From Leptolyngbyaceae cyanobacterium M33_DOE_097 (lineage in GTDB: Bacteria > Cyanobacteriota > Cyanobacteriia > Leptolyngbyales > Leptolyngbyaceae): a stretch of 54,123 nucleotides of DNA. Under the pieces are notes generated by a model. That model was given only the letters and a program-made list of their open reading frames with translations, was not told where the DNA came from and ran no database searches. The position numbers and the translations under genes are program-made. The stretch lies in assembly GCA_015296075.1 (NCBI GenBank), contig DVDV01000360.1, forward strand, positions 1 through 54,123, written 5' to 3'. Positions 6,123 to 49,019 of this stretch are shown one piece after another (within the stretch, counting starts at the first letter, position 1; each line of letters starts with the position of its first letter).

Positions 6123-9100
6123 TCAAGTTGCGTAAGTAAACGAGATGTTGAAGTTCGTCGTCGCTAACGTATTCGTACCATCCGAGACATTGAACCGGAA
6201 GAAGTCACTACCCGGTGTGCCAGCCCCACTGTAGAAGTAAGTCAGGTTGCCATTCAGAATGTCGGTTTGCGTAAACTGACCGTTGGCAGTCAGTGCCGTA
6301 CCGTTTAATCGGAGTTGACCAACGGTTGGCGCGGTTGACAACGTATACCGAATTTGATCAGGCGTGTTGTCAACATCAGTGACTAACAACAACGTGCCAT
6401 CAATCTGAGACTCAGACGGTTGACCGCCTGCAATGATCAGACGCGGACTCGTTGTACTCAAGACAGGTCGATCATTTACTGGGGTAATCACAATATCAAA
6501 TCGCCCGGTTTGAGTCAGCGGTGCGCCAGTCGGTAATGGAGTGTCACTCACTTCATAGGTAAAGACATCAGAGGTCGTCTCAGAACCATTGTGACGATAG
6601 GCGAGGTTACCCGAATTGATATTTGCCTGAGTGAAGGTATCGCCAATGCCCAACGTAGTTGTGTTATTGAGAATCAAGTTACCGCTCAACGGACGCGACA
6701 AGAGTCGGTAGGTGATCGGTGTTTGATTCTCAGGATCAGTCGTCAGCAGTCGGTTTGAACCAATCGATAGGGCAGAACCTTCTGCCAGAGTGATCGGGCC
6801 ACTCGAAACGGTGATTGGTGCATCGTTAACTGGAGTGATCTCAATATTGAAGGCGATCGAATCAGTTGAGTTGCCAGCCTGATCTTCGACCCGGAAGACA
6901 AAGCTATCGTTTGTACCCTCACTGCCATTGTGACGGTAGGTGACTGCGCCACTATTGATGTCGGCCTGTGTAAAGGTGGAACCAACCGTTAAGTTACCCA
7001 GGCGATTGAGCGTGCCGCTAGTAGGTACGGCTTCAATCACATAACGCACTTGGCTCGCCGAACTATCAGGGTCGCTCACTGACAGCAGGTTACGCAAGTT
7101 GCCGATCACCGTACCTGAGTTATTCTCATTGACTGTGAGTGAGTTGTTGAGCGTCACGAGCGGTACATCATTCACATCATTGACGGTGATGTTGAAGGTG
7201 AAGGTTGTATTCGCTGGATTACCAACTAACCGGAAGCGGAACGAGTCAGTTGTCGTTTCACTGCCATTGTGGGTGTACTGCAACTGTCCACCAATGATGT
7301 CGTCGCGAGTGAAGGTGCCATTGGCTGCGAGAGCCGAGCCACCCACCTCTAAACTGCCATTGGTCGGAGCGCTCACCAGGACAAACTGAGGCGTTGGCCC
7401 ATCCACATCGGTTGCGTCTAACAAGCCATTCAAAATTGGCTCGTCTTCTGTCCCTTCATTCACAAAGAGGCGGTTGTTTCTGAGCAGGGTCGGTGGATCG
7501 TTGACCTCTGTGACATTGATTTCAACGCTATCGGTGACATCAACGCCACTACCTGCTGCCCCTCCGGTTGCACCCTGATCGTTCACAGTAATGCTGAGGG
7601 TGTCACTTCCAAAGAAGTTGAGGTTCGGTTGATAGACGAGCGTTGACAGGGCATTGATGATGTCTGCGATCGCCCCTTCATACACGGCACCAGCAGAGTT
7701 ATTCTCACCACTAATCAGGTTCAGAGCTGCTTGATCGAGGGTGAGTCGGCCATTCGTCACGTTGAGCGTGATCCGAACGGGGCTATCGCCTGAGTCAACA
7801 TCTGTCAGATCAATGGCATTCGCTCCAGTGAAGGCGAGTTGAGTGTCCTCACCGATGGAGAGCGGCCCATCCGGGAGATCTAGAATGGGTGGATCGTTAA
7901 CGGCTTGCACGTTGAGACTCACGATTCCCGATGCTGTCTGGGCACCACCCGCACCAACAGAGCCTAAATCGCTGACAGTGATGCTAACTTCGTCTGTCCC
8001 AAAGTAGTTTTCAGCAGCTTGATAACGCAGGCTGGGTAAACCCGTAGTGCGGAAGGCGGCTAACGTCCCCTGGACAACAATCTGAGAGGCTCCAGTCGAT
8101 AGATCGACACCATTGACTTCCGTTAAACCAGTGGTGTTGCCAAAGAAGATGCGGCCACCTGGTTGCTGTGTGTTGAATGTGATTTGAATGTTGCCATTTG
8201 CTGCATCCACATCGCTAACAGTGATACCGCTGAGCGTGAATGGTGTGTCTTCTAAGGGCGATCGCACCACATTTGAAATTGTCAACGTCGGCGCATCATT
8301 GACTGGCTGGATGTTGATCGTCAGAATTTCGGTATCGGACAGAGCCGGACCACCCGTATTACCGCGATCGCTCACCGTAATCGAAATGCGCTCCTCACCA
8401 TTGACATTCAAACGGTTCAGGTAGGTGAAGTTGCTCAGAGAAGAGTTGATTTCTTCCAACGTGCCCGTCAGACGCACTGTTGAACCCGTTGTACCATTCA
8501 CATTGAGCGTGCCAGCATTGGTCGAGTTACCAGGACCAAGCGCTGTTAGCGTGACCTCAATCGTGCCGGTTCCGGCATCTACATCCGAGATGGAGATACC
8601 AGAGATATTTAACTGCTGGTCTTCATCAATGGTGAGGCTCGTAACTGGCAGGCTGATGACAGGCGCATCATTGACGGCTCGCACATTGATTGTCAGCGTT
8701 CGCAGAATCGATGAATCAACACCATTATTCTCAACGCCACCATCGTCTTGTAATCTCACCGTCAAAATCGCTTGACCGCTTGCATCTTGAGCTGGAGTAA
8801 AGGACAACGTGCCATCCGTGCCAAGTGTTGGTGCAACACTAAACAGATCGGGGTTACTGTTCGAGTCAATCACAAATGTTACGTTCTGATCGGCCTCATC
8901 AAACGGTGCAGTCGCGTTAGGCCCAGGACGAATGGCAGACGCGATCACGGCTGAGTAAGGCGTGTCTTCTGCAACAGTGATGTTTGTCGAGGAAAGGTTG
9001 AACGTTGGTGCATCATTGACCGGATTGATCGTGATCTGGAAGGTAAAGTCTTCAGACACATTGTCATTCGGCGCTGTGTTGGAACCTGAATCACGTAAGC

Positions 9101-12100
9101 GCACCGTTACATCGGTTGTGCCAAAGGCATTTGGTGCGGGGGTAAAGATGAGGTTGCCTGTGGCAGGGTCAATCCGGGGCCGTCCAGTGGCAGTGAAGAG
9201 CGAGGTATCCGTAGCCGTTACTTCAAAGGTGAGCGTTTGATTCGATTCATTCGCGGCACCACGTGAAATGCTGGTTGCCCAACCCGCAATCACCTGCTGC
9301 GCTGGCACTGGATCTTCATTGATCACTACATTAGTGCCAGTCGTAAAGGTCGGCGGATCGTTCACGGGGGTAACGGTAACGGCGATCGTCCCTTGCGCTG
9401 TGCCGGGAGTTGGGCCAGTTGCACCTTGATCATTGATGCTGACAAGAATCTGATCCGTACCAAAGAAATCAGGGTTGCCTTGATACCCCAAGTTGGTGAG
9501 AGCCGCTGCAATCTGGTCGATCGTGCCTTCAAACGTTACTGTATTTGACCCATTGGCTCCACCAGTGACGGAGACAACCGCACTTGGATTGATAGTCAGC
9601 GTGCCATTCGTCGCTTGCAACGTTGCGCTAACATTGCTGCCGCCAGCATCAATATCCGTTGTTTGAATGGTCAGGGTTAGTACTTCATCTTCTAAGACGG
9701 TCTGAGCCCCTGGCAGTGTTAGGGTTGGAGCGTCGTTGACAGGTTGTACCGTCAGCGAAATGGTCTGGGTTTGTGTCCCACCCTCACCATCATCAGCCGT
9801 AACCGTCAGTGTGTCAGGCCCAAAGTAATTGGGGTTGGGTCGGTAGACCAAGTTACCTAAGCGGGTAGTTAAATTTGTACCACTACCGCTAATTGTGACA
9901 CTGCTCCCTGTCGTAGCACCCGGAATAGTCAGAGTACCTGAGTTAACCGATAGATCGAGTTCGATTGGGTCACTATCGGGGTCGCTAATCGCGATCAGGC
10001 CATTACCAAACGGTAGGGTTCCATCCTCATTTAAGGTCTGCGGCCCCGGTATTGTAATCACGGGCGCATCATTCGCCTCGTTGATCGTGAGGGTCAAGCC
10101 CGTGACTGCTGAGGTTGCACCAGCGCCATCAGCCGCCCGGAAGGTAAAGCGATCGGTGCTTGTCGCCGCACCACCAGCCGGTTCAGCCCCATTGTGCACG
10201 TAAGTTAATGTTCCCGAATCAAGATCCGACTGAGTAAAGGTGCCACCTTCGGCGAGGGTCGTTGCACCCAAAATCAGTTGACCTGACGTGGGCAGATTGA
10301 CGAGCGTGTAAGTGATCGGCTCAGGTCCATCGGCATCGCTCGCTGAAATCAACGTGGCGTTAATTGGCAGCGAATCGCCTTCTGAGAAGTCGGTCGGTGC
10401 TGCACCCACTGTCACTACAGGCCCATCATTGACCTGTGTAATTGAGATGTTGAAGATCTGCTCAGTTGGGTTGTTTGGTAGACCATCGCTGTCAGACACA
10501 ATGAAGCCAAACGCATCTGAAACAGATTCAGAACCGTTATTGCGATAGCGAATGACATTTCCAGCGTTCAATTCTGCTTGGGTAAAGGTGTCACCGATAC
10601 CCAGTGTTGCTGTGCCACGAATTATGTCACCTGCGCTGGGGGTGCCAGTCAGAGTGTAAATGACGTTTCCAGGTAGGCTATCGACATCACTGGTTAGCAA
10701 CAGAGTTTGAGTCAAGAACGCTTGCTGTTGATTTTCGGTGACTGTGAGCCCCAAGTTGCTGACCAATACAGGCGCATCTGGGCGGTTAGCAACTGAGATC
10801 GATAAGACCTGCTCTTCCGTCGGACCTGCATTCAAAATATCCCGGATCGTAAAGCGGAAGGCATCAGTGGTGGGTGTTTCACTACCGTTGTGCCGGAAGG
10901 TAATGCGATTCGCGTTGACATCCGCTTGTGTGAAACTCTGTCCACCAGTGAGGGGGGTGCCGTCTCGCCGAATTGTGCCTGTTGTTGGCAGCGTTTGACT
11001 CACTGTATAGATAATTTGGGCCGCACCATTGTCGCGATCGCTCACACCTAACGTGGCTGAATCAATCGTCACAATGTCGTCTTCACTAACGGTGACACCT
11101 GCATTCAGAGTGAGGACTGGTACAAAGTTGCTGCTTAGAACAGCGATGTTAAATGTCAATGGATTAGCGGTTGCTGGTAGACCTTCGTTATCTGACACTG
11201 TAAAGGTGAAGCGATCGCTGTTACCTTCGGCAGTGTTGGTGTAGACCAGGCGATCGTTATCAATGTCAGCCTGAGTAAAGGTATCTCCATCATTGAGTGG
11301 CCCACCACCATCGCGCTCAAGAATACCGCGACTTGGCCCAGTCACAATCGTATAAACAATCTCATCAGAGCCACCTGGCAATGGTGTTGACTCTGCGTCA
11401 GAGGTAAAGAGAAGCGCCTCGGTAATGGAAGCCGATGCATCTTCACTAATCGTGAGACCCACATTAGTCAGCACTTGGGGCGCATCATTCACCGGAGTGA
11501 TAGTCAGCGTGAATGGGTTAGGAGCTGGTATCGCTGTGCCACCTGCGTTGTCAGTCAGAGTAAAGCTAAAGACATCTTGCAGGGTCTCGCTACCGTTATG
11601 ACGGTAAATCACCCGATTCGCATTGATATCTGCCTGGGTAAAGGTGCTACCTGCTGCCAATGCCTGGAAGTTAAGACTCAGCGAACCGTTAGTTGGTAAA
11701 TCGTTGATTGAGTAAATCAGCTGAGCAGGCGTTTGCTCAACATCTGAAGCTGATAAAACAGTATTTGAAAGGGTTAGAGCCGTGCCTTCACTCAGAGTGG
11801 CACCCGCAGTAGAATCGATTGTCGGTGGATCATTGACAGGCAGTACACCAATTGAGAAGGTTGTTGCTGCTACTTCTCCCTGGGGGCTGCCTGAATCACG
11901 TACTGTGAAAACGAATTGATCTAGGGCTGCCTCACCGCCATTGTGGCGATAGCTAATCCGGCCTGCATTAATATCTGCTTGGGTAAATATACTGCTTAGT
12001 AAAAGAACTTCTCCATTTGAAAGGAGGTCACCACTGTCAGGTAGATCAACAAAGCTATAGGTTAGCTGCGGTGGCAGGTCATTTGCATCTGAAACTAGGA

Positions 12101-13748
12101 GCAGTTGACTTGAGAGTGTGGCGGTTGTGCCTTCCGTTAAGAATAGTGGGCCTGCAGTCACAGCAACTGGAAAGTTGTTGACATTCAAGTTCAGTCGGTA
12201 GAGACTGTTTGCCCCAGCTTTAGGAAAGACTCGGATCAGGTACGTACCAGCAGCTAAGCTGAGCCCTGTAATGGCTTCGGGTGCGGAACCATCTGTTACG
12301 CTTTCAGCAATTGGAGTCGTGCCTCCTGAACCTGGCAGGATCTGGACATCGAGGTCACCACTTAAATCGCCACCCCCAATTCCTTGTAGAGAAAGATTGA
12401 GAACCGACAGGCTCCCCACTGAGAAGCGGTAGTAATCATCGCTATTAGCACTACCGAGAGTACCAACAAAACTGCCATTACCATTGAGAGAACCAAGGGA
12501 AAAGGCTGCGGCGGGTGTATTGCCAGCAATATCACCTAAGCCAACCTGTACCCGTCCTGCATAGGGGGCGACGGCTCGCCATTGTGTAGCAAGTGGATTT
12601 TGACCGATTTGTATAACTGATACGCGCTCTACGCCATTAAAAAGCCAAGTCTCATTAAAGCCAGTAACTTGATTACGGAAAAAGATATCCGTTTGACCAT
12701 CACTATTGAAATCTCCAGTTCCTTGAATCTCCCAATTGTTGTCAGGCGGGCCAACCAGTACTGCACGCGAGAGAATCTGATTGCCGCTTAAAAAATCAAC
12801 AAATACAGAGGGACCTGCGGCTGGGTTAAAGTTGCGGTAAAGCAGATCTGGGTTGCCGTCACCATTAAAATCACCAACACCGGAAAGTCGGGCACTTAGG
12901 TTAGTCTCTGCAGGTGGAACGAGTGAACCGAGAAATGGAAGCTGATCACCCGTAGTAGGGACTGCGCCAAGCAACCAAATCGCGTTAACTCCAAGTTGGT
13001 AGTTGCGCCAGATAATATCGATGTTGCCATCTGCGTTAAAATCGGCAGCTCCTCCAATTTGCCAGCTCTGATCAGCTAACGTCGGAAAACCGACAGAACG
13101 AGCAACACTGCTGCCATTCATGATCCAGACGACGTTGCCGCCCGTTACTCTGTTGCGCCAAACGATATCGCCTTGGCCATCGTTGTTGAAGTCTGCTGTT
13201 GCCTGGGCTTCCCATTCCAAAGGTGGAGTCAACTGTGGCAGCAATTGGCTGGATACCACTGTTGAATTATTAATCCTCCAAGCCACATTCGCGCCTGTAG
13301 AAAAATCTCGCAATAGGACATCCGATCGCTGCCCATTGTCCAGCGCGATCACTAAGTCATAGTTGGTTGAAGGCGTTGAGCCTGAAGCATCGTTTGGGTC
13401 AGCAGCAGGCCCTGGTAAAACCCGAATAAAGTATGTGCCAGCCTCTAGCTCAGCATTGATGGTTTCTGGCAGACTACCTGTATTTCGCGACACAGCCAGA
13501 ATCCCATTTGGGTCAGTATAAAGCTGTGGAGTTGTTAGCCCTGCACCTTGTCGGTAGAGTTCAATGTTCGCATCCGCATTAAGGCCAGACAGAACAATTC
13601 TTAGACTACTTCTACCAGTGGTGTTAACAGTGTTGAACGTATAAAAGTCTTCATCACCAAACTGAACCGAGTCACGGGGTAGCGTTGTTGGGGTACGACC
13701 AGGAAAAATACGCTGTGCAGTCTGAAAAGAGTTGCCCGGATCAGTCAT
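6123..13748 (-). CDS. Giant repeat surface protein: PPC, FG-GAP, cadherin/CSPG repeats
   Basis: A 2541-residue predicted extracellular protein, a likely adhesin or matrix protein. In order: a bacterial pre-peptidase C-terminal (PPC)-like domain (1-135); four FG-GAP/VCBS-type units with Ca-binding DxNxDGxxD loops such as DFNNDGQGD and DFNADGNID (about 140-400); a second PPC-like domain (400-525); six CSPG-type repeats, most with FTQADIN and RHNGSE (525-1224); seven cadherin-like repeats marked by NDAPT and NEDG (1225-2082); and four more CSPG-type repeats to the C-terminus. No signal peptide, LPXTG or RTX nonapeptides are seen. One lysine (residue 510) and no cysteine are visible. The type I secretion ABC gene 226 bases upstream on the same strand suggests leaderless export. 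The binding partner is unknown. Confidence 0.88.
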   Translation of the reverse strand: MTDPGNSFQTAQRIFPGRTPTTLPRDSVQFGDEDFYTFNTVNTTGRSSLRIVLSGLNADANIELYRQGAGLTTPQLYTDPNGILAVSRNTGSLPETINAELEAGTYFIRVLPGPAADPNDASGSTPSTNYDLVIALDNGQRSDVLLRDFSTGANVAWRINNSTVVSSQLLPQLTPPLEWEAQATADFNNDGQGDIVWRNRVTGGNVVWIMNGSSVARSVGFPTLADQSWQIGGAADFNADGNIDIIWRNYQLGVNAIWLLGAVPTTGDQLPFLGSLVPPAETNLSARLSGVGDFNGDGNPDLLYRNFNPAAGPSVFVDFLSGNQILSRAVLVGPPDNNWEIQGTGDFNSDGQTDIFFRNQVTGFNETWLFNGVERVSVIQIGQNPLATQWRAVAPYAGRVQVGLGDIAGNTPAAAFSLGSLNGNGSFVGTLGSANSDDYYRFSVGSLSVLNLSLQGIGGGDLSGDLDVQILPGSGGTTPIAESVTDGSAPEAITGLSLAAGTYLIRVFPKAGANSLYRLNLNVNNFPVAVTAGPLFLTEGTTATLSSQLLLVSDANDLPPQLTYSFVDLPDSGDLLSNGEVLLLSSIFTQADINAGRISYRHNGGEAALDQFVFTVRDSGSPQGEVAATTFSIGVLPVNDPPTIDSTAGATLSEGTALTLSNTVLSASDVEQTPAQLIYSINDLPTNGSLSLNFQALAAGSTFTQADINANRVIYRHNGSETLQDVFSFTLTDNAGGTAIPAPNPFTLTITPVNDAPQVLTNVGLTISEDASASITEALLFTSDAESTPLPGGSDEIVYTIVTGPSRGILERDGGGPLNDGDTFTQADIDNDRLVYTNTAEGNSDRFTFTVSDNEGLPATANPLTFNIAVLSSNFVPVLTLNAGVTVSEDDIVTIDSATLGVSDRDNGAAQIIYTVSQTLPTTGTIRRDGTPLTGGQSFTQADVNANRITFRHNGSETPTTDAFRFTIRDILNAGPTEEQVLSISVANRPDAPVLVSNLGLTVTENQQQAFLTQTLLLTSDVDSLPGNVIYTLTGTPSAGDIIRGTATLGIGDTFTQAELNAGNVIRYRNNGSESVSDAFGFIVSDSDGLPNNPTEQIFNISITQVNDGPVVTVGAAPTDFSEGDSLPINATLISASDADGPEPITYTLVNLPTSGQLILGATTLAEGGTFTQSDLDSGTLTYVHNGAEPAGGAATSTDRFTFRAADGAGATSAVTGLTLTINEANDAPVITIPGPQTLNEDGTLPFGNGLIAISDPDSDPIELDLSVNSGTLTIPGATTGSSVTISGSGTNLTTRLGNLVYRPNPNYFGPDTLTVTADDGEGGTQTQTISLTVQPVNDAPTLTLPGAQTVLEDEVLTLTIQTTDIDAGGSNVSATLQATNGTLTINPSAVVSVTGGANGSNTVTFEGTIDQIAAALTNLGYQGNPDFFGTDQILVSINDQGATGPTPGTAQGTIAVTVTPVNDPPTFTTGTNVVINEDPVPAQQVIAGWATSISRGAANESNQTLTFEVTATDTSLFTATGRPRIDPATGNLIFTPAPNAFGTTDVTVRLRDSGSNTAPNDNVSEDFTFQITINPVNDAPTFNLSSTNITVAEDTPYSAVIASAIRPGPNATAPFDEADQNVTFVIDSNSNPDLFSVAPTLGTDGTLSFTPAQDASGQAILTVRLQDDGGVENNGVDSSILRTLTINVRAVNDAPVISLPVTSLTIDEDQQLNISGISISDVDAGTGTIEVTLTALGPGNSTNAGTLNVNGTTGSTVRLTGTLEEINSSLSNFTYLNRLNVNGEERISITVSDRGNTGGPALSDTEILTINIQPVNDAPTLTISNVVRSPLEDTPFTLSGITVSDVDAANGNIQITFNTQQPGGRIFFGNTTGLTEVNGVDLSTGASQIVVQGTLAAFRTTGLPSLRYQAAENYFGTDEVSITVSDLGSVGAGGAQTASGIVSLNVQAVNDPPILDLPDGPLSIGEDTQLAFTGANAIDLTDVDSGDSPVRITLNVTNGRLTLDQAALNLISGENNSAGAVYEGAIADIINALSTLVYQPNLNFFGSDTLSITVNDQGATGGAAGSGVDVTDSVEINVTEVNDPPTLLRNNRLFVNEGTEDEPILNGLLDATDVDGPTPQFVLVSAPTNGSLEVGGSALAANGTFTRDDIIGGQLQYTHNGSETTTDSFRFRLVGNPANTTFTFNITVNDVNDVPLVTLNNSLTVNENNSGTVIGNLRNLLSVSDPDSSASQVRYVIEAVPTSGTLNRLGNLTVGSTFTQADINSGAVTYRHNGSEGTNDSFVFRVEDQAGNSTDSIAFNIEITPVNDAPITVSSGPITLAEGSALSIGSNRLLTTDPENQTPITYRLLSRPLSGNLILNNTTTLGIGDTFTQANINSGNLAYRHNGSETTSDVFTYEVSDTPLPTGAPLTQTGRFDIVITPVNDRPVLSTTSPRLIIAGGQPSESQIDGTLLLVTDVDNTPDQIRYTLSTAPTVGQLRLNGTALTANGQFTQTDILNGNLTYFYSGAGTPGSDFFRFNVSDGTNTLATTNFNISFTYAT

Positions 13749-22300: not shown

Positions 22301-24493
22301 ATGAGCAGAAAGGCGTTCGTCCGCTGGGGATGCTGTTTTTTCATGAGTTTGGGGCTGATGCTGGGGTTGGCCCAGTGGCAGGGGGCGATCGCGCAACAGT
22401 CTCAACCCATCCCAATTGGTTTGGGGGTGGCACAGACCAGTAACGTTGCTTTGCTGGGGCAAGAGCAGGTCGCGGGTGGCAAAATTGCTGAACAGTACTT
22501 TAATCAGCAAGGTGGCATCAATGGCCGACCGATTCGGGTGGTGTTGCAAGACACTGGCGGTGAAGAAGCAGGCACGATCAACGCCTTTCAAACGCTGATC
22601 ACCAAAGACAAAGTCGTGGGAATTGTGGGGCCGACCCTGTCTCAGCAAGCGTTTAGTGCTGACCCGGTCGCCGATCGCGCGAAAGTTCCGGTGATTGGGC
22701 CTTCCAACACGGCCAAAGGGATTCCGCAAATTGGGGAGTATATCGCACGGGTTTCGGCTCCATCGGTGGTGGTAGCACCCAACTCTGTCCAGGCCGCACT
22801 GACGCTCAATCCGCAAATCAAGCGAGTCGCGATTTTCTTTGCTCAAAATGACGCGTTTAGCAAATCTGAGACTGAGATTTTTCAAAAGGTGGTGAAAGAG
22901 CAGGGGCTAGAGATTGTCACGGTGCAGAAGTTTCAGACAACAGACACCGACTTTCAAACCCAGGCAACCGCTGCTTTGAGCTTAAAGCCCGATCTGGCAA
23001 TTATCTCTGGTCTGGCGGCGGATGGGGGCAACTTGATTCGTCAGTTACGCGAGTTGGGGTATCGCGGTCTGATTATTGGTGGAAATGGCTTAAATACGGC
23101 GAATGTGTTTCCGGTTTGTAAAGCGCTGTGTGATGGGGTTTTGATTGCTCAGTCGTATAACCCAAAATTTCCGAATGCGATTAACAAAGCGTTTAGTGAA
23201 GCCTATACAAAGGCTTATGGTAAACAGCCGCCGCAGTTTAGTGCGCAGGCATTCACCGGGATTCAGGTGTTTGTGGAGTCGCTTGAGGCGATCGCGGCGC
23301 GTAAACCTCTGGAGCAGTTCTCGCTGGAAGAATTGCGGGTCGAACTAAACAAACAGTTACTCACAGGGCAATACGACACACCTCTGGGCAAAATTTCGTT
23401 CACTCCCGAAGGGGAAATCGTGCAGGAGAATTTCTACGTCGCTCAGATCAAGATGAGTCCCGATGGGGAAGATGGTGAATTTGTCTTCTCGAAGCTAACG
23501 GCATCGGGTTTGGCTCAAACAGAGGCTAGCAGTGAACCTGCTTCGGGTTTTGCCTGGGTTTTTCAAAATATCTTGAATGGCCTGTCGATCGGCAGTGTCT
23601 ACGTCATTTTTGCGCTGGGTTACACCCTTGTTTTTTCGATTTTGGGCATCATCAATTTTGCTCACGGTGCCATCTTCACCTTGGGAGCCTACTTCACTTA
23701 CATGCTGATGGGGCGCAAATTTGGGTTTAACGGTTTGCTGGCAAATGCTCAATTTCCGTTGCAACTGCCGTTTGTGTCTGCGATGTTGTTGGGGGCGGTT
23801 CTGGCTGGTCTGGTTGGGGTGGCGATCGAGCGATTTGCGTTTCGTCCCCTCAGAAAGCGCGGCTCTGATCCTCTATTTACCGTGGTGTCGAGCTTGGGTG
23901 TCGCGTTGGTGATTGTCAACTTGATTCAGTACCTGGTTGGGGCTGAACCCTACACCTTTCCAAGTAACATCTACGGCAATTTGCCTGAGAGTATTAACTT
24001 TGGCAGTGCGGCGAACCCGATTACTATTCGCACCGTGCAACTGGTGATTTTGGCGGTGTCAGGGCTGATCTTGACGATTTTGACCTTTCTGATTAGTGGC
24101 ACCAAGTATGGCAAAGCGATGCGTGCGGTTGCCGAGGACCCAACTACAGCCAGCCTTTTGGGCATTAATCCCGATCGCTTTGTGGTGTTGACCTTTTTTG
24201 TCAGCAGTTTTGTCGCTGCGATCGCGGGTTCACTTGTGGCTTCGAGCGTTGGCATCAGCAACCCCTACTTTGGCATCAACTACGGCTTAAAGGGCTTAGC
24301 GGTGATTGTGTTAGGTGGTTTGGGTAGTGTTCCGGGGGCGGTTGTGGGCGGCTTGCTGCTTGGCCTGTTTGAGGCGTTTGTGCCAGGTGAATACTCCGCC
24401 TTTAAGGATGCTGTCGCCTTTGGTCTGTTATTTCTGGTGTTGTTGATTCGTCCCAGTGGGCTGATGGGGCGCAGGGTAATTCAGAAGGTTTAA
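22301..24493 (+). CDS. Fused solute-binding protein and LivH-type permease (branched-chain/polar amino-acid ABC)
   Basis: A single 730-residue frame joins two subunits that are normally separate. Residues 1-31 are a signal sequence (CCFFMSLGLMLGLAQW). Residues 32-395 form a periplasmic type I binding protein of the LivK/UrtA kind: GIVGPTLSQQAFSADPVADR, KVPVIGPSNTAKGIP, RVAIFFAQNDAFSKSE. A linker of about 25 residues rich in Ser, Glu and Ala leads to a LivH permease (about 420-730): NILNGLSIGSVYVIFALGYT, GIINFAHGAIFTLGAYF, VAEDPTTASLLGINPDR and GGLGSVPGAVVGG. The substrate is likely an amino acid or urea-like compound, but specificity is unclear. LivM and the ATPases LivG and LivF are not in the window, so the transporter must use partners encoded elsewhere. 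The next gene is convergent. Confidence 0.92.
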   Translation: MSRKAFVRWGCCFFMSLGLMLGLAQWQGAIAQQSQPIPIGLGVAQTSNVALLGQEQVAGGKIAEQYFNQQGGINGRPIRVVLQDTGGEEAGTINAFQTLITKDKVVGIVGPTLSQQAFSADPVADRAKVPVIGPSNTAKGIPQIGEYIARVSAPSVVVAPNSVQAALTLNPQIKRVAIFFAQNDAFSKSETEIFQKVVKEQGLEIVTVQKFQTTDTDFQTQATAALSLKPDLAIISGLAADGGNLIRQLRELGYRGLIIGGNGLNTANVFPVCKALCDGVLIAQSYNPKFPNAINKAFSEAYTKAYGKQPPQFSAQAFTGIQVFVESLEAIAARKPLEQFSLEELRVELNKQLLTGQYDTPLGKISFTPEGEIVQENFYVAQIKMSPDGEDGEFVFSKLTASGLAQTEASSEPASGFAWVFQNILNGLSIGSVYVIFALGYTLVFSILGIINFAHGAIFTLGAYFTYMLMGRKFGFNGLLANAQFPLQLPFVSAMLLGAVLAGLVGVAIERFAFRPLRKRGSDPLFTVVSSLGVALVIVNLIQYLVGAEPYTFPSNIYGNLPESINFGSAANPITIRTVQLVILAVSGLILTILTFLISGTKYGKAMRAVAEDPTTASLLGINPDRFVVLTFFVSSFVAAIAGSLVASSVGISNPYFGINYGLKGLAVIVLGGLGSVPGAVVGGLLLGLFEAFVPGEYSAFKDAVAFGLLFLVLLIRPSGLMGRRVIQKV

Positions 24494-34057: not shown

Positions 34058-37000
34058 ATGAAAAGTGATTGGCTTCGAGAGCGGTTAGATCATTACTACG
34101 AGCAAATCAACACCATCATTCTCAGTCGGCAAAACCCCATAACAGGTTTGTTGCCAGCCAGTACAGCGATTAACGCCCATGGGGACTATACCGATGCCTG
34201 GGTGCGTGATAACGTTTACAGCATTTTGGGCGTGTGGGGGCTGGCGCTGGCCTATCGCAAGTTGGATGACAACTCTGGAAGGGCTTTTGAGCTGCAACAT
34301 CGAGTCACGAAGCTGATGCGGGGGTTGCTGTTTGCCATGATGCGGCAGGCTGATAAAGTGCAGCGGTTTAAAGAAACCCAGGATCCACTTGATGCGCTGC
34401 ATGCGAAGTACGACACCAAGACAGGTGGTACGGTGGTTGACGACGATAAGTGGGGTCACTTGCAGCTTGATGCAACGTCGCTGTTTTTGCTGATCTTGGC
34501 GCAGATGACGGCTTCAGGGTTGCATATTGTGTTTGACACCGATGAGGTCAACTTCATTCAAAACCTGGTCTATTACATTGGTCGCGCCTATCGCACCCCC
34601 GATTATGGAATCTGGGAACGGGGAGCCAAGATTAATCACGGCAATCCTGAGTTGAATGCTAGCTCGGTTGGGATGGCGAAAGCGGCTCTAGAAGCCATGA
34701 ATGGGCTTAACCTGTTTGGTATTCATGGCGGTCAGGAAGCGGTAATTCACGTATTGCCTGACGAAATTGCTCGAACTCGCGTCACACTTGAGTCGCTGTT
34801 ACCACGGGAATCTAGCTCCAAAGAAGTGGATGCGGCGCTGCTCAGCGTGATTGGGTTTCCTGCATTTGCGGTGGAGGAGAATAGCCTCTGCGATCGCACC
34901 CGCCAAAAGATCATCGACAAGCTCCAGGGGCATTATGGTTGCAAGCGGTTCTTGCGAGATGGGCACCAAACGGTAATTGAAGATCACTCGCGGCTGCACT
35001 ATGAACCGTGGGAGTTGCAGCAGTTTGAGCATATCGAGTGTGAATGGCCACTGTTTTTCACGTACTTACTGCTGGATGCTCTGTTCCGGGGCGCTCGCGA
35101 GCAGGTCGAAGCCTACCAGACCCGATTAGCCGCTGTGCTGATTGAGCGAGACGGGCACCAGCTTCTCCCCGAACTGTATTACGTGCCGAAAGAGGCGATC
35201 GAGGCTGAGCGCCAGAATCCGGGCAGCCAGGAGCGGTTGCCCAATGAAAACTTGCCGCTGGTGTGGGCGCAAAGCCTTTACTTTTTGGGGCAGATGTTAA
35301 CCGAAGGGTTAATTACCCCGGGTGATATTGATCCCCTGGGGCGGCACCTTCATATTCGCCACCAACGGCAACCAATTGTGCAGGTTGCTTTGCTCGCAGA
35401 AAACGATGCGTTGCAAGCCCAACTCGCTGCCTACGGTTTCTTTAGCCAAACTCCCCAGCAGCTTGAGCCGATCCATGTGCGGCAAGCGCAAGAGTTGTCA
35501 ACGGCTTACACTCAGATTGGCCGCAACGATAAGTTAAAGCTGAGCGGTCGCCCAAAGCGTCGCCTGCGGAGTCTAACTACGGCGCGAATTTACCGGATTT
35601 GTGGTGAAACAATTGTGTTTTTGCCCTCGTTTTTAGACCAGCAGCAGTTTTACCTGACGTTTGATACGAAGTTTCTGATTACCCAAATTCGCGCGGAGAT
35701 TGCTTACACGCAGCGCCACTGGAGTTTGCTGGGCCGCCCAACTATGACGCTGCTGCTGACCGACTCGATGTTAAAGACCAAGGATGGCAGCATTGATCCC
35801 GCGCCGTTATTAGCTTTGCTGCAAGAGTTAAAAGCAGGCAGTTGTAATGGCGTGCAAGTCAAGCTGGGGCAACTCAATCAGTTAATGCTGACAGCCAGTA
35901 CGGAGCGGTTTGAGTTTTTGCACGACTTTGAGTTTGCCCAAGCCGCTGTGCGAAATGCGCGTCCTGACTGTCGCTATCTTGCGTTTAATCCCCGACGGAG
36001 TATACCCCTCAGCATCACGCAAGAATTTACGCTTGAAAGTGAAACCGATATCAAACCGTTACTCAACAGTCTGCGCCAATCGGATAACCTCTACGAGCAA
36101 GTTGAGTTGCTGAGTGCGCTGATTCGATTGCGAGGGTTTGAGTTCGACACGGGCTTAGGGCAACCGGAACGCGCTGTTACTGTCAGTGACCTGCTCAGCG
36201 AAATCTACCGTAAAGCTGGGGAGCATAAGCTATGGGGTGTTGTGCGCCGCGTAGCTGGCTTAAATGACCAGGTGAGTATGAGCCTTTCGGATGCTGTAAC
36301 GGATATTCTGGTTCGACAAAAGCAGATTGCAGTGGGACGCGCTTACAGCGAAGCTTCTCTAATTACTCAGCCGATGGGGCCAGAAGAAATTATGGAGAAG
36401 ATCAAGGAGTTTTGCCGCGAAGACATCCGCGATCGCGTCTTAACTCAAGAGATTTTGATTTACTTGAGTCTCTTGATCCGCTCAGAACCCGCTTTGTTTA
36501 AGGGCTTTTTGACGATTCGGGTGGGCTACATGATTTTGCTGCTCACTGCCGAACTGGCTCAACAAGAGAACTTGACCCAAGACGAAGCCTACGACCACTT
36601 AATGCAGTTGAGTCCGCATGAGATTCAGAGCCGCTTGCGTCATGTGCTGGCAGGGTTTGAGGGACTTGACAAGACGGTGTTTGAGCAAGAATCGTTGACG
36701 GCCAACCAGGAAGTCACGGCGATCGAGTGGGTGGTTCGGGAAGAGAATGAACCGGATGCTCCTGCAAGTGAGAACTGGTTGCGTAAACGTCAGCTCGATG
36801 GCTCGATTAACCGGGTGCCAACGGACTTTTACCCCAGTGTTTGGCGCGTGTTAAAGCACTGCCGGGGCCTGGTCGTTGGGGATAAGTTTGAACGACGCAA
36901 TCGCCTTGACCACGAGATTGTGCTAGAGATGACCCCCGGCGAAAAGAACTTTGCCCTGCGGGTTGAGCATTTGCTAAACAAGATTCAAGCGCCAGAGTAT

Positions 37001-37315
37001 CACCAGGTCAATGTGGAAGCCTTGATGGAGTTAGCCGCGATCGCAGATAGTAACCCTGACTTGCAGATTCAGGACTACATCGTGCTGGATGTGTTGATCG
37101 GGCACGCGGTGCGACTCGCATTTCTCGATGCAAATCCCCAATTGGTCGGCAACTACGCCAACCACAAGGCGGCGGCGTGGCGATCGTTCTATGAAACCTC
37201 TCCCTATGACTGCGCCCGTTACATCGCCAAAGCGCTGCAATTCCTGACACGCCCACGCCCATCCCGTCGCCAGGACGCAGCAGAAGTAGCGGACAAGCAA
37301 CCCCAGCAGGTTTAG
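34058..37315 (+). CDS. Phosphorylase kinase alpha/beta-like GH15-family protein
   Basis: A 1085-residue protein resembling the eukaryotic phosphorylase b kinase regulatory alpha/beta subunits over its whole length. The N-terminal third is a glycoside-hydrolase-15 (glucoamylase-like) barrel: NPITGLLPASTAINAHGDY, DAWVRDNVYSILGVWGLAL, DDKWGHLQLDATSLFLL. The C-terminal part carries the KPBB-type region: VLTQEILIYLSLLIRSEPAL, RKRQLDGSINRVPTDFYPSV and EMTPGEKNFALRVEHLLNKI. In animals these subunits scaffold and inhibit the gamma kinase; bacterial function is unknown. It could hydrolyse or sense glucan (cyanobacteria store glycogen), or regulate an enzyme. No gamma-like kinase is adjacent. It starts at ATG 34058, and the next gene follows after 28 bases, which suggests co-transcription. 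Confidence 0.9.
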   Translation: MKSDWLRERLDHYYEQINTIILSRQNPITGLLPASTAINAHGDYTDAWVRDNVYSILGVWGLALAYRKLDDNSGRAFELQHRVTKLMRGLLFAMMRQADKVQRFKETQDPLDALHAKYDTKTGGTVVDDDKWGHLQLDATSLFLLILAQMTASGLHIVFDTDEVNFIQNLVYYIGRAYRTPDYGIWERGAKINHGNPELNASSVGMAKAALEAMNGLNLFGIHGGQEAVIHVLPDEIARTRVTLESLLPRESSSKEVDAALLSVIGFPAFAVEENSLCDRTRQKIIDKLQGHYGCKRFLRDGHQTVIEDHSRLHYEPWELQQFEHIECEWPLFFTYLLLDALFRGAREQVEAYQTRLAAVLIERDGHQLLPELYYVPKEAIEAERQNPGSQERLPNENLPLVWAQSLYFLGQMLTEGLITPGDIDPLGRHLHIRHQRQPIVQVALLAENDALQAQLAAYGFFSQTPQQLEPIHVRQAQELSTAYTQIGRNDKLKLSGRPKRRLRSLTTARIYRICGETIVFLPSFLDQQQFYLTFDTKFLITQIRAEIAYTQRHWSLLGRPTMTLLLTDSMLKTKDGSIDPAPLLALLQELKAGSCNGVQVKLGQLNQLMLTASTERFEFLHDFEFAQAAVRNARPDCRYLAFNPRRSIPLSITQEFTLESETDIKPLLNSLRQSDNLYEQVELLSALIRLRGFEFDTGLGQPERAVTVSDLLSEIYRKAGEHKLWGVVRRVAGLNDQVSMSLSDAVTDILVRQKQIAVGRAYSEASLITQPMGPEEIMEKIKEFCREDIRDRVLTQEILIYLSLLIRSEPALFKGFLTIRVGYMILLLTAELAQQENLTQDEAYDHLMQLSPHEIQSRLRHVLAGFEGLDKTVFEQESLTANQEVTAIEWVVREENEPDAPASENWLRKRQLDGSINRVPTDFYPSVWRVLKHCRGLVVGDKFERRNRLDHEIVLEMTPGEKNFALRVEHLLNKIQAPEYHQVNVEALMELAAIADSNPDLQIQDYIVLDVLIGHAVRLAFLDANPQLVGNYANHKAAAWRSFYETSPYDCARYIAKALQFLTRPRPSRRQDAAEVADKQPQQV

Positions 37316-47087: not shown

Positions 47088-49019
47088 ATGAGCTATTGCT
47101 TAAATCCGTATTGCCAGCATCCCAATAACCTAGAATCTGCTCGCTTTTGTATTAATTGTGGGTTTCGGCTGTTGTTGGGCGATCGCTATCGGGCGATGCA
47201 ACAAATTGGGCAAGGCGGGTTTGGCAAAACGTTCTTAGCGGTTGACGAATACAAGCCATCGCGGCCCCGTTGTGTGATTAAACAGTTTTTTCCAGAGCGA
47301 CAGGGCACCACGGATCTGGCGCGATCGCACGAACTGTTTGAACGAGAAGCGATTCAACTGGAGCGTTTGGGCAATCATCCTCAAATTCCAGAGTTGCTCG
47401 CGCATTTTGAGCAAGATGGCTACCACTTCTTAGTGCAGGAATATATCGATGGTGCCAACCTGCTACAAGAGATCGGCCAAAAAGGAGCCTTTAGCGATCG
47501 CCAGATCTGGCAGTTGTTAGTGGATTTGTTGCCCGTGCTGGACTATATCCATGAGCATCAGGTGATTCATCGCGATATCAAGCCGCAAAACATCATTCGG
47601 CGACGGAATGGGCAACAGTACGTGCTGGTCGATTTTGGTGCGGCTAAGTCGATTAACGCGAATGACCTGGTGCATACGGGCACGAGTATTGGCAGTCCCG
47701 AATTTGTGCCACCCGAACAGGTGATCGGCAAAGCCACTTATGCAAGCGACCTCTACAGCCTGGGTGTGACGTGTCTCTACCTGTTAACAGGGGTGCGTCC
47801 CGCCGATCTGTATGACACCGAAGAAGGCTTGTGGAACTGGCAACCGCGCCTAGTTTTACCTGTGAGTACGAGTTTGAGCCATGTCCTCGATCGCATGATT
47901 CAAGGGCCGGTGAAGCGGCGTTATGGGTCAGCCGCTGAAGTCTTAAAGGATTTGCATCACCCTGATTTGTTAGCGCAATTAGCAGCGGAGAGTGCGACTG
48001 TCATTCAACCGCAACCCCTGGTAGCGACTCCACCACCTGATCTAAAACCGGAGCCAACCTCGTTTGCCACAACGCGCATGCCAGCCAGCCGACTGAATCT
48101 GAGCGATCGCTGGGTTTGCACGCAGACCTTGAGTGGGCATCAAAACTGGGTGCGAGCGGTGGTGGTGCATCCTAACAACGAGCTACTCATTAGTGGGAGT
48201 GGCGACAAGACGCTGCGCTTCTGGCGCTTGCCTGATGGCGAGTTGATACGTGAGATTGTGGCGCATACGTCGTGGGTGCGGGCGATCGCGCTCAGCTCTG
48301 ACCAGCAAACGCTTGCGAGTGCCAGCAATGACCGCACCATTAAGTTGTGGAATTGCCACACCGGTGATTTGCTCAACACCCTAACCGGCCACCAGGACTG
48401 GGTGCGAGCCGTAGTCTTTAACCCTGGCGGACAAGTTTTGTTTAGCGGTAGTCAAGATAAGACGATTCGCGTTTGGGATGTCGCGACCGGAAAATCACTG
48501 CTTGCTTTGAATGGGCATGAACATTGGGTTGTTTGCTTGGCCTGTGGCAAAACCGCCGACGGAAAGGTGCGCTTGTTTAGCGGCAGTCGAGACGCCACAA
48601 TTCGAGTCTGGAGCGGTAACAATGGTGCATTGCTGCAAACCCTGAGTGGTCACGAAGGCACTGTCAATGCGCTTGCTCTGCATCCCAATGGCAAGACGCT
48701 GATTAGCGGCAGTGATGATGGCACGATTCGCCTGTGGAACTTGCAGACGGGGCATTGCCTGCAAAACTTAACAGAAAACGCTGGAGCTGTTTATGGTTTA
48801 GCGATCAGCTCAGATGCAAATTGGCTAGTCAGTGGAGGACAGAACAAGGCGCTAAAAGTGTGGCATTTGCCAACGCGCACCCCTCAGGCCGATCTGACAG
48901 GGCACGCAGGTTGGATTTGGGCGATCGCGTTTAGCCAAAATGATGAATTCCTCGTGAGCGGCAGTTGGGATGCCACCGTCAAAATCTGGCAACGCACCAG
49001 CCGTCCCCCCCAGGCTTGA
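47088..49019 (+). CDS. Ser/Thr protein kinase with zinc ribbon and seven WD40 repeats
   Basis: A 643-residue signalling protein. Residues 1-26 form a zinc ribbon (Cys4, Cys9, Cys21, Cys24). The kinase domain (about 33-290) is complete: glycine loop IGQGGFGKTFLA, VIKQF lysine, HRDIKPQNI near residue 159, DFGAAKSI, and SPEFVPPEQ. All catalytic residues are present, so it should be active. After a Pro-rich linker (about 305-345) seven WD40 repeats form one beta-propeller (LSGHQNWVRAVVVHPNNELL to SWDATVKIWQRTS), a platform for partners. Cyanobacteria have several such kinases with unknown substrates. It ends six bases before the convergent methyltransferase stop, without room for a shared terminator. 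Confidence 0.93.
   Translation: MSYCLNPYCQHPNNLESARFCINCGFRLLLGDRYRAMQQIGQGGFGKTFLAVDEYKPSRPRCVIKQFFPERQGTTDLARSHELFEREAIQLERLGNHPQIPELLAHFEQDGYHFLVQEYIDGANLLQEIGQKGAFSDRQIWQLLVDLLPVLDYIHEHQVIHRDIKPQNIIRRRNGQQYVLVDFGAAKSINANDLVHTGTSIGSPEFVPPEQVIGKATYASDLYSLGVTCLYLLTGVRPADLYDTEEGLWNWQPRLVLPVSTSLSHVLDRMIQGPVKRRYGSAAEVLKDLHHPDLLAQLAAESATVIQPQPLVATPPPDLKPEPTSFATTRMPASRLNLSDRWVCTQTLSGHQNWVRAVVVHPNNELLISGSGDKTLRFWRLPDGELIREIVAHTSWVRAIALSSDQQTLASASNDRTIKLWNCHTGDLLNTLTGHQDWVRAVVFNPGGQVLFSGSQDKTIRVWDVATGKSLLALNGHEHWVVCLACGKTADGKVRLFSGSRDATIRVWSGNNGALLQTLSGHEGTVNALALHPNGKTLISGSDDGTIRLWNLQTGHCLQNLTENAGAVYGLAISSDANWLVSGGQNKALKVWHLPTRTPQADLTGHAGWIWAIAFSQNDEFLVSGSWDATVKIWQRTSRPPQA

Follow-up and report, generated by a model that had tools for sequence, protein, structure and literature searches.

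A full-length relative of the phosphorylase kinase alpha and beta subunits in cyanobacteria that joins a conserved GH15-type pocket with putative ADP ligands

Background

The alpha and beta subunits of phosphorylase kinase (PhK) contain glucoamylase-like domains whose role has been called unresolved (PMC10978961). In the human enzyme, domain D1 of alpha has two catalytic glutamates, 185 and 371, while beta lacks some of the catalytic residues; neither subunit shows measurable hydrolase activity, alpha being inactive on maltose, isomaltose and glycogen. ADP is bound on beta between D1, D2 and D4, where Arg211, Tyr213, Arg214 and Arg274 hold its diphosphate, and none is reported at the corresponding place of alpha, which holds the N-lobe of the gamma kinase through Lys588 and Tyr593 (PMC10978961). 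In GH15 enzymes, a catalytic-loop Tyr bonds the general base and lies seven or eight residues before an Asp of the -1 subsite, and the inverting members that have been compared have Gln directly after the base (PMC12446779).

On the prokaryotic side, the accessible sections of a 2024 review of alpha-glucan enzymes do not mention phosphorylase kinase, and the GH15 passages in those sections concern archaea. We found no functional study of a cyanobacterial PhK-like or GH15 protein in the open literature, outside which most subscription journals lie. A 'glycogen phosphorylase kinase' of Synechococcus named in one abstract was set aside, since the text of the same paper says glgP. The family itself is known to Pfam; the joint presence of two sites, its occurrence in kinase-free genomes and a loop difference in human alpha, which we describe here, seem to have gone unnoted in the open literature. 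The gene under study lies in a stretch of 54,123 nucleotides from Leptolyngbyaceae cyanobacterium M33_DOE_097 (assembly GCA_015296075.1, contig DVDV01000360.1), hereafter the window.

Results and discussion

Homology to PhK alpha and beta over the full length

The gene starts with ATG and encodes a protein of 1085 amino acids (Table 1). Two Pfam families cover most of it, Glyco_hydro_15 over residues 9-823 (E 1.2e-94), with the model matched from end to end, and KPBB_C over positions 2-234 of the 238 in its model (E 4.3e-101); the GH15-like D1 and KPBB_C score 318 and 337.5 bits, respectively, exceeding curated cut-offs of 22 and 27. Against the PDB, the whole protein matches solely human PhK alpha (3.6e-262) and beta (1.5e-218), nearly over their full length. 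Its C-terminal 205 residues alone match beta (2.9e-20) and alpha (3.4e-19), and a 43-row profile likewise retrieves these two, with no other match at E values up to 10. A sequence search of the structures with a D1 profile matched no ordinary GH15 structure. Identity over aligned positions is 48.0% to human alpha and 41.9% to human beta, which are 38.6% identical to each other; D1 is closer to alpha (62.5%, versus 49.1% to beta) and D2 closer to beta (39.2%, versus 33.0% to alpha). One KPBB_C protein and one GH15 protein were found in the genome, and both are this protein.

An AlphaFold2 model built from 43 sequences (mean pLDDT 81, pTM 0.78) superposes on human alpha with a Z of 49.2 (794 residues, rmsd 3.4) and on human beta with a Z of 42.5 (825 residues, rmsd 2.8); these superpositions span model residues 1-876, and where D5 lies with respect to the other domains is less certain. 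The next-nearest folds to D1 are GH15 enzymes, the Kribbella isomaltose glucohydrolase KfIG (PDB 5Z3A, Z 27) and the bacterial glucoamylase 1LF6 (Z 25); dextran dextrinase (Z 23.5) and glucodextranase 1UG9 (Z 23) also superpose on D1 of the model. KfIG, 1LF6 and 1UG9 share with the cyanobacterial protein the (alpha/alpha)6 barrel, the two glutamates and the loop Asp and Tyr, at 12-18% identity; KfIG lacks D2-D5.

The protein is a member of the PhK alpha/beta homology family, full-length, collinear and alike in overall fold. The preliminary description, made from the sequence of the window, had recognised such a homologue in a photosynthetic bacterium and PhK-like blocks in its C-terminal half. 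Both points are borne out, at scores that leave no room for a chance match: the profile search that it proposed matches KPBB_C as well as GH15, and the two peptide blocks that it named fall within the C-terminal domain, where they can be aligned with the human subunits.

Table 1. Features of the PhK-like gene and of a recurrent neighbour; positions are those of the window unless another locus is named
Feature	Position	Strand	Remarks
PhK alpha/beta homologue (GH15 + KPBB_C)	34058..37315	+	CDS, 1085 aa
D1, GH15-like (alpha/alpha)6 barrel	34058..35347	+	about residues 1-430, approximate boundary
Tyr44, position of the GH15 catalytic-loop Tyr	34187..34189	+	116/116; Gln in human alpha, Asp in human beta
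Arg50-Asp51, -1 subsite (WVRD)	34205..34210	+	Asp is the conserved GH15 O4/O6 ligand; Gln-Asp in human beta
R176-x-Y178-R179	34583..34594	+	human beta R211, Y213, R214 around the ADP diphosphate; 116/116
Glu187, putative general acid	34616..34618	+	aligns with human alpha E185; 116/116
R239 (human beta R274, ADP ligand) and R241	34772..34780	+	116/116; His and Gln in human alpha
Glu372, putative general base	35171..35173	+	aligns with human alpha E371; 116/116; Lys in human beta
E590-S595, equivalents of human alpha K588 and Y593	35825..35842	+	variable among 116 cyanobacterial sequences
KPBB_C domain	36563..37258	+	residues 836-1067
WecG/TagA/CpsF gene divergent from the PhK-like gene	L132:12158-13012, L122:5651-6442, L041:6373-7146 and further loci

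A common gene in cyanobacteria

The gene is not exceptional: KPBB_C scores above its cut-off in 71 of 292 genomes of the phylum, all of them within the window's class (about 139 of the 292 by our own count), and every one of the 37 good genomes of the window's own family has the gene. Among the sampled genomes outside the class, which are mostly small, no KPBB_C was detected save one fragment below threshold. The best 80 matches of a profile scan of contigs are all cyanobacterial; a search of plasmids gave one weak GH15 match and a search of phages none. One record (L152, NZ_CP134663.1), listed as an E. coli plasmid, has at 4.9 Mb the look of a chromosome and encodes a single-domain GH15-like protein of 550 amino acids, weakly similar to PhK beta.

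Comparison of relatives shows saturated synonymous sites and a pN of 0.10-0.16, which indicates strong purifying selection. Together with the wide spread, this makes the gene an ordinary resident of many cyanobacteria rather than a one-genome curiosity. Two loci (L130 in genome G215, and G305:C1:275272-278459) have the gene split over two or three frames, through decay or sequencing error.

In a tree, all cyanobacterial sequences fall on one side and human alpha and beta on the other, with very long branches. One family of genomes of 2-3.7 Mb, which we take to be marine Synechococcus, branches inside the cyanobacteria as the quickly evolving sister group of genome G036 (2.8 Mb), a position that favours vertical descent within the phylum; a separate acquisition by marine Synechococcus was considered and dropped on the same ground. 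As human alpha and beta are its sole eukaryotic sequences and it has no outgroup, the tree is compatible with transfer from bacterium to eukaryote or the reverse.

An apparently complete GH15-type catalytic pocket

We mapped the functional residues by aligning 116 cyanobacterial sequences with human alpha and beta. Both catalytic glutamates of alpha are kept, as are the residues at the positions of Tyr44, Trp48, Arg50 and Asp51: all six are invariant in 116 of 116 sequences, including those of marine Synechococcus at about 45% identity. Tyr44 and Asp51 were assigned by spacing and motif rather than by residue-level superposition; they are seven residues apart, a spacing that matches two bacterial GH15 enzymes, and the loop H41-G42-x-Y44 around the Tyr is itself invariant in all 116. 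This answers the question of the glutamates raised with the initial proposal of a GH15-like barrel. The accompanying suggestion, that the protein may sense or hydrolyse a glucan, is plausible in its general form, a glucan-handling role, since the glutamates are kept in such a barrel.

Comparison with the human subunits is instructive. The cyanobacterial protein shares with alpha (PHKA1; PDB 8JFK, 8Z5R) the full length, the fold of D1-D4, both glutamates, the WVRD motif, W130 and D136, whereas beta (PHKB; PDB 8JFL), also alike over its full length, has lost the general base and has KIQD instead of WVRD. There are 28 invariant columns in common with alpha but not with beta, among them W48, R50, W132, D138 and E372, most of which we take to be catalytic-pocket residues. 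Alpha lacks, however, the H41-G42-x-Y44 loop: it has a six-residue deletion there with Gln at the aligned place, and another Tyr nine residues ahead of its Asp. Human alpha retained both glutamates and probably lost the Tyr loop, a loss that may explain its inactivity, although its other Tyr may be a shifted equivalent. One feature sets the cyanobacterial proteins apart from KfIG, 1LF6 and 1UG9: position 373, directly after the base, is Leu or Val and not Gln. With Leu in place of Gln, transfer rather than hydrolysis is possible.

The ligands of ADP on human beta are kept

The preliminary description rightly saw a PhK homologue but overlooked a second site. The residues aligned with the four that hold the diphosphate of ADP on human beta, R176, Y178, R179 and R239, are kept in all 116 cyanobacterial sequences as putative ligands, while human alpha has Ala, Tyr, Lys and His at these positions. 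The RxYR motif is missing from one single-domain GH15 relative that we aligned by hand. Invariance alone is not rare, at 183 of 1085 columns (17%). Nevertheless, four Arg or Tyr residues drawn from beta D1 are all invariant in 0.7% of draws, and of 885 columns only 11 are invariant and shared with beta but not with alpha, of which three are ADP ligands and another is a neighbouring Arg. The chance of finding three of the four ligands among these 11 columns is 6e-6, assuming independence of columns, which is not quite true.

A single bacterial chain would then combine two sites that are separate in alpha and beta, a difference most simply explained by loss after duplication. One cyanobacterial genome (G197) has two full-length copies, 71% identical, each of which has retained the catalytic as well as the ADP residues; that duplication has left the sites undivided.

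No need for a Hanks-type kinase partner

Is the protein a kinase subunit in cyanobacteria as it is in animals? The initial proposal that it may regulate glycogen turnover through a different kinase is not supported as a general role. Seventeen small genomes of the presumed marine Synechococcus family carry the gene. In three of them (G257, G266 and G291), 99-100% complete and in one contig each, no Hanks-type kinase (PF00069) was found, and only atypical kinases of the ABC1/UbiB type match; two others (G201 and G205) have, beyond ABC1 proteins, one weak PF00069 fragment each, below the cut-off. Retention of the gene in the three kinase-free genomes means that a Hanks-type partner is not required, and the protein is independent of such kinases. 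Features of the PhK holoenzyme subunits are also missing: the protein has Glu590 and Ser595, positions that vary within the family, in place of the gamma-contact residues Lys588 and Tyr593, and a C-terminal CaaX farnesylation motif, present in alpha and beta, was found in none of 121 translated copies.

Genomic neighbourhood

In the window, the gene is flanked by a divergent phytoene-desaturase-like gene and by a PLP decarboxylase that starts 28 bases past its stop codon. Across loci, no conserved downstream partner was found. The most conserved neighbour is a divergent WecG/TagA/CpsF glycosyltransferase gene, present in 37 of the 114 loci with enough upstream DNA; the pairing spans Microcoleaceae, Oscillatoriaceae, a 2.8-Mb genome of another family and marine Synechococcus. 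In the latter family, the PhK-like gene occurs in 17 of 19 genomes with WecG and in none of 16 (small) genomes without it. WecG genes, however, occur in almost all genomes of the phylum, whether a PhK-like gene is present or not. Glycogen phosphorylase was found in all 26 genomes tested, including seven that lack the PhK-like gene; its equal presence there leaves a glycogen link plausible but not specific.

Elsewhere in the window, a Hanks-type Ser/Thr kinase is encoded at 47088-49019 (+), some 10 kb away from the PhK-like gene. A 730-residue protein (22301-24493, +) joins a Peripla_BP_6 periplasmic binding domain to a BPD_transp_2 branched-chain amino acid permease domain, parts that are usually separate proteins. 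A third gene (6123-13748, -) encodes a probable surface protein of 2541 amino acids in which cadherin-like and FG-GAP repeats are numerous.

Possible functions

The reading that we prefer, tentatively and at a little under an even chance, is that of a cytosolic, kinase-independent enzyme of the PhK alpha/beta group that processes alpha-glucosides and is gated by ADP or a similar nucleotide. The D1 barrel would bind a small alpha-glucan or glucoside by its non-reducing glucosyl end, and this glucosyl unit would be cleaved or transferred with Glu187 as acid and Glu372 as base, Tyr44 and Asp51 positioning water. ADP or a similar compound (for example, ADP-glucose) would sit between D1, D2 and D4 on R176, Y178, R179 and R239, as in human beta; its binding would shift D2-D5 against D1, so that glucan processing would track the energy charge of the cell. 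The protein would probably form a homodimer, using the D1 helix by which alpha and beta pair in PhK (residues 70-96 of the cyanobacterial protein), in which 16 of 29 columns are identical to each human subunit. Several observations weigh against this gated enzyme. Human alpha has both glutamates and hydrolyses none of the three substrates tried; Leu follows the base, and the acid loop 187-190 has a pLDDT under 50 in our model. The ADP-site residues could instead bind a different anion or keep the domains in contact. Moreover, the best-conserved neighbour is a glycosyltransferase gene of WecG type and not a glycogen gene, and glycogen phosphorylase is as frequent in genomes without the gene.

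Without the gating, the protein would be an active glucosidase or transglucosidase of GH15 type whose substrates are small alpha-glucosides or ones derived from glycogen; the RxYR motif and R239 would then be structural or bind another anion, such as a sugar phosphate or phosphate. The complete catalytic set in 116 of 116 sequences is in favour of this and four residues cannot reveal nucleotide specificity, but all four ADP-contacting residues of beta are kept while alpha, without reported ADP, differs at three of them; we consider this version unlikely, if worth keeping in mind. A non-catalytic glucan sensor or pseudoenzyme would agree with the inactivity of human alpha and beta and with Leu in place of Gln, yet core catalytic residues that are invariant in 116 sequences down to 45% identity, including a Tyr position that alpha seemingly lost, speak against it, and we rate it as quite improbable. 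So, to a similar degree, is an envelope or exopolysaccharide enzyme that would work with the head-to-head WecG glycosyltransferase instead of on glycogen: the pairing recurs over deep branches and the two genes co-occur in marine Synechococcus, but it is missing from most loci, the window included, WecG is found regardless of the PhK-like gene, and the co-occurrence may reflect a single loss during genome reduction. A regulatory subunit or scaffold of a non-gamma Ser/Thr kinase, with phosphorylation controlling glycogen phosphorylase, has in its favour the homology to kinase regulatory subunits and the 48 PF00069 matches in the window's genome, one of them about 10 kb off. The kinase-free genomes, the variable gamma contacts, the missing CaaX end and the two non-kinase neighbours in the window make it very unlikely.

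If the gated enzyme is the right reading, the protein could represent the PhK alpha/beta ancestor in a living and still undivided state, a glucan-cutting enzyme under ADP control whose functions parted after duplication in eukaryotes, kinase control being recruited only then. Of the duplicates, alpha would have kept most of the catalytic pocket and beta the ADP site, both then becoming a kinase scaffold. This history, on which two eukaryotic sequences on long branches bear, is possible, although we lean against it.

Conclusions

A single-chain bacterial relative with both sites and no need of a kinase offers a tractable system for the function and origin of the glucoamylase-like domains of PhK and for the way in which acarbose and ADP act on the enzyme, and the loop difference offers a possible explanation for the inactivity of human alpha. 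The gene also directs attention to a probable enzyme of carbon storage in cyanobacteria that has so far escaped study. If the protein does represent the undivided ancestor, the link between energy sensing and glycogen breakdown would be older than protein phosphorylation and independent of it.
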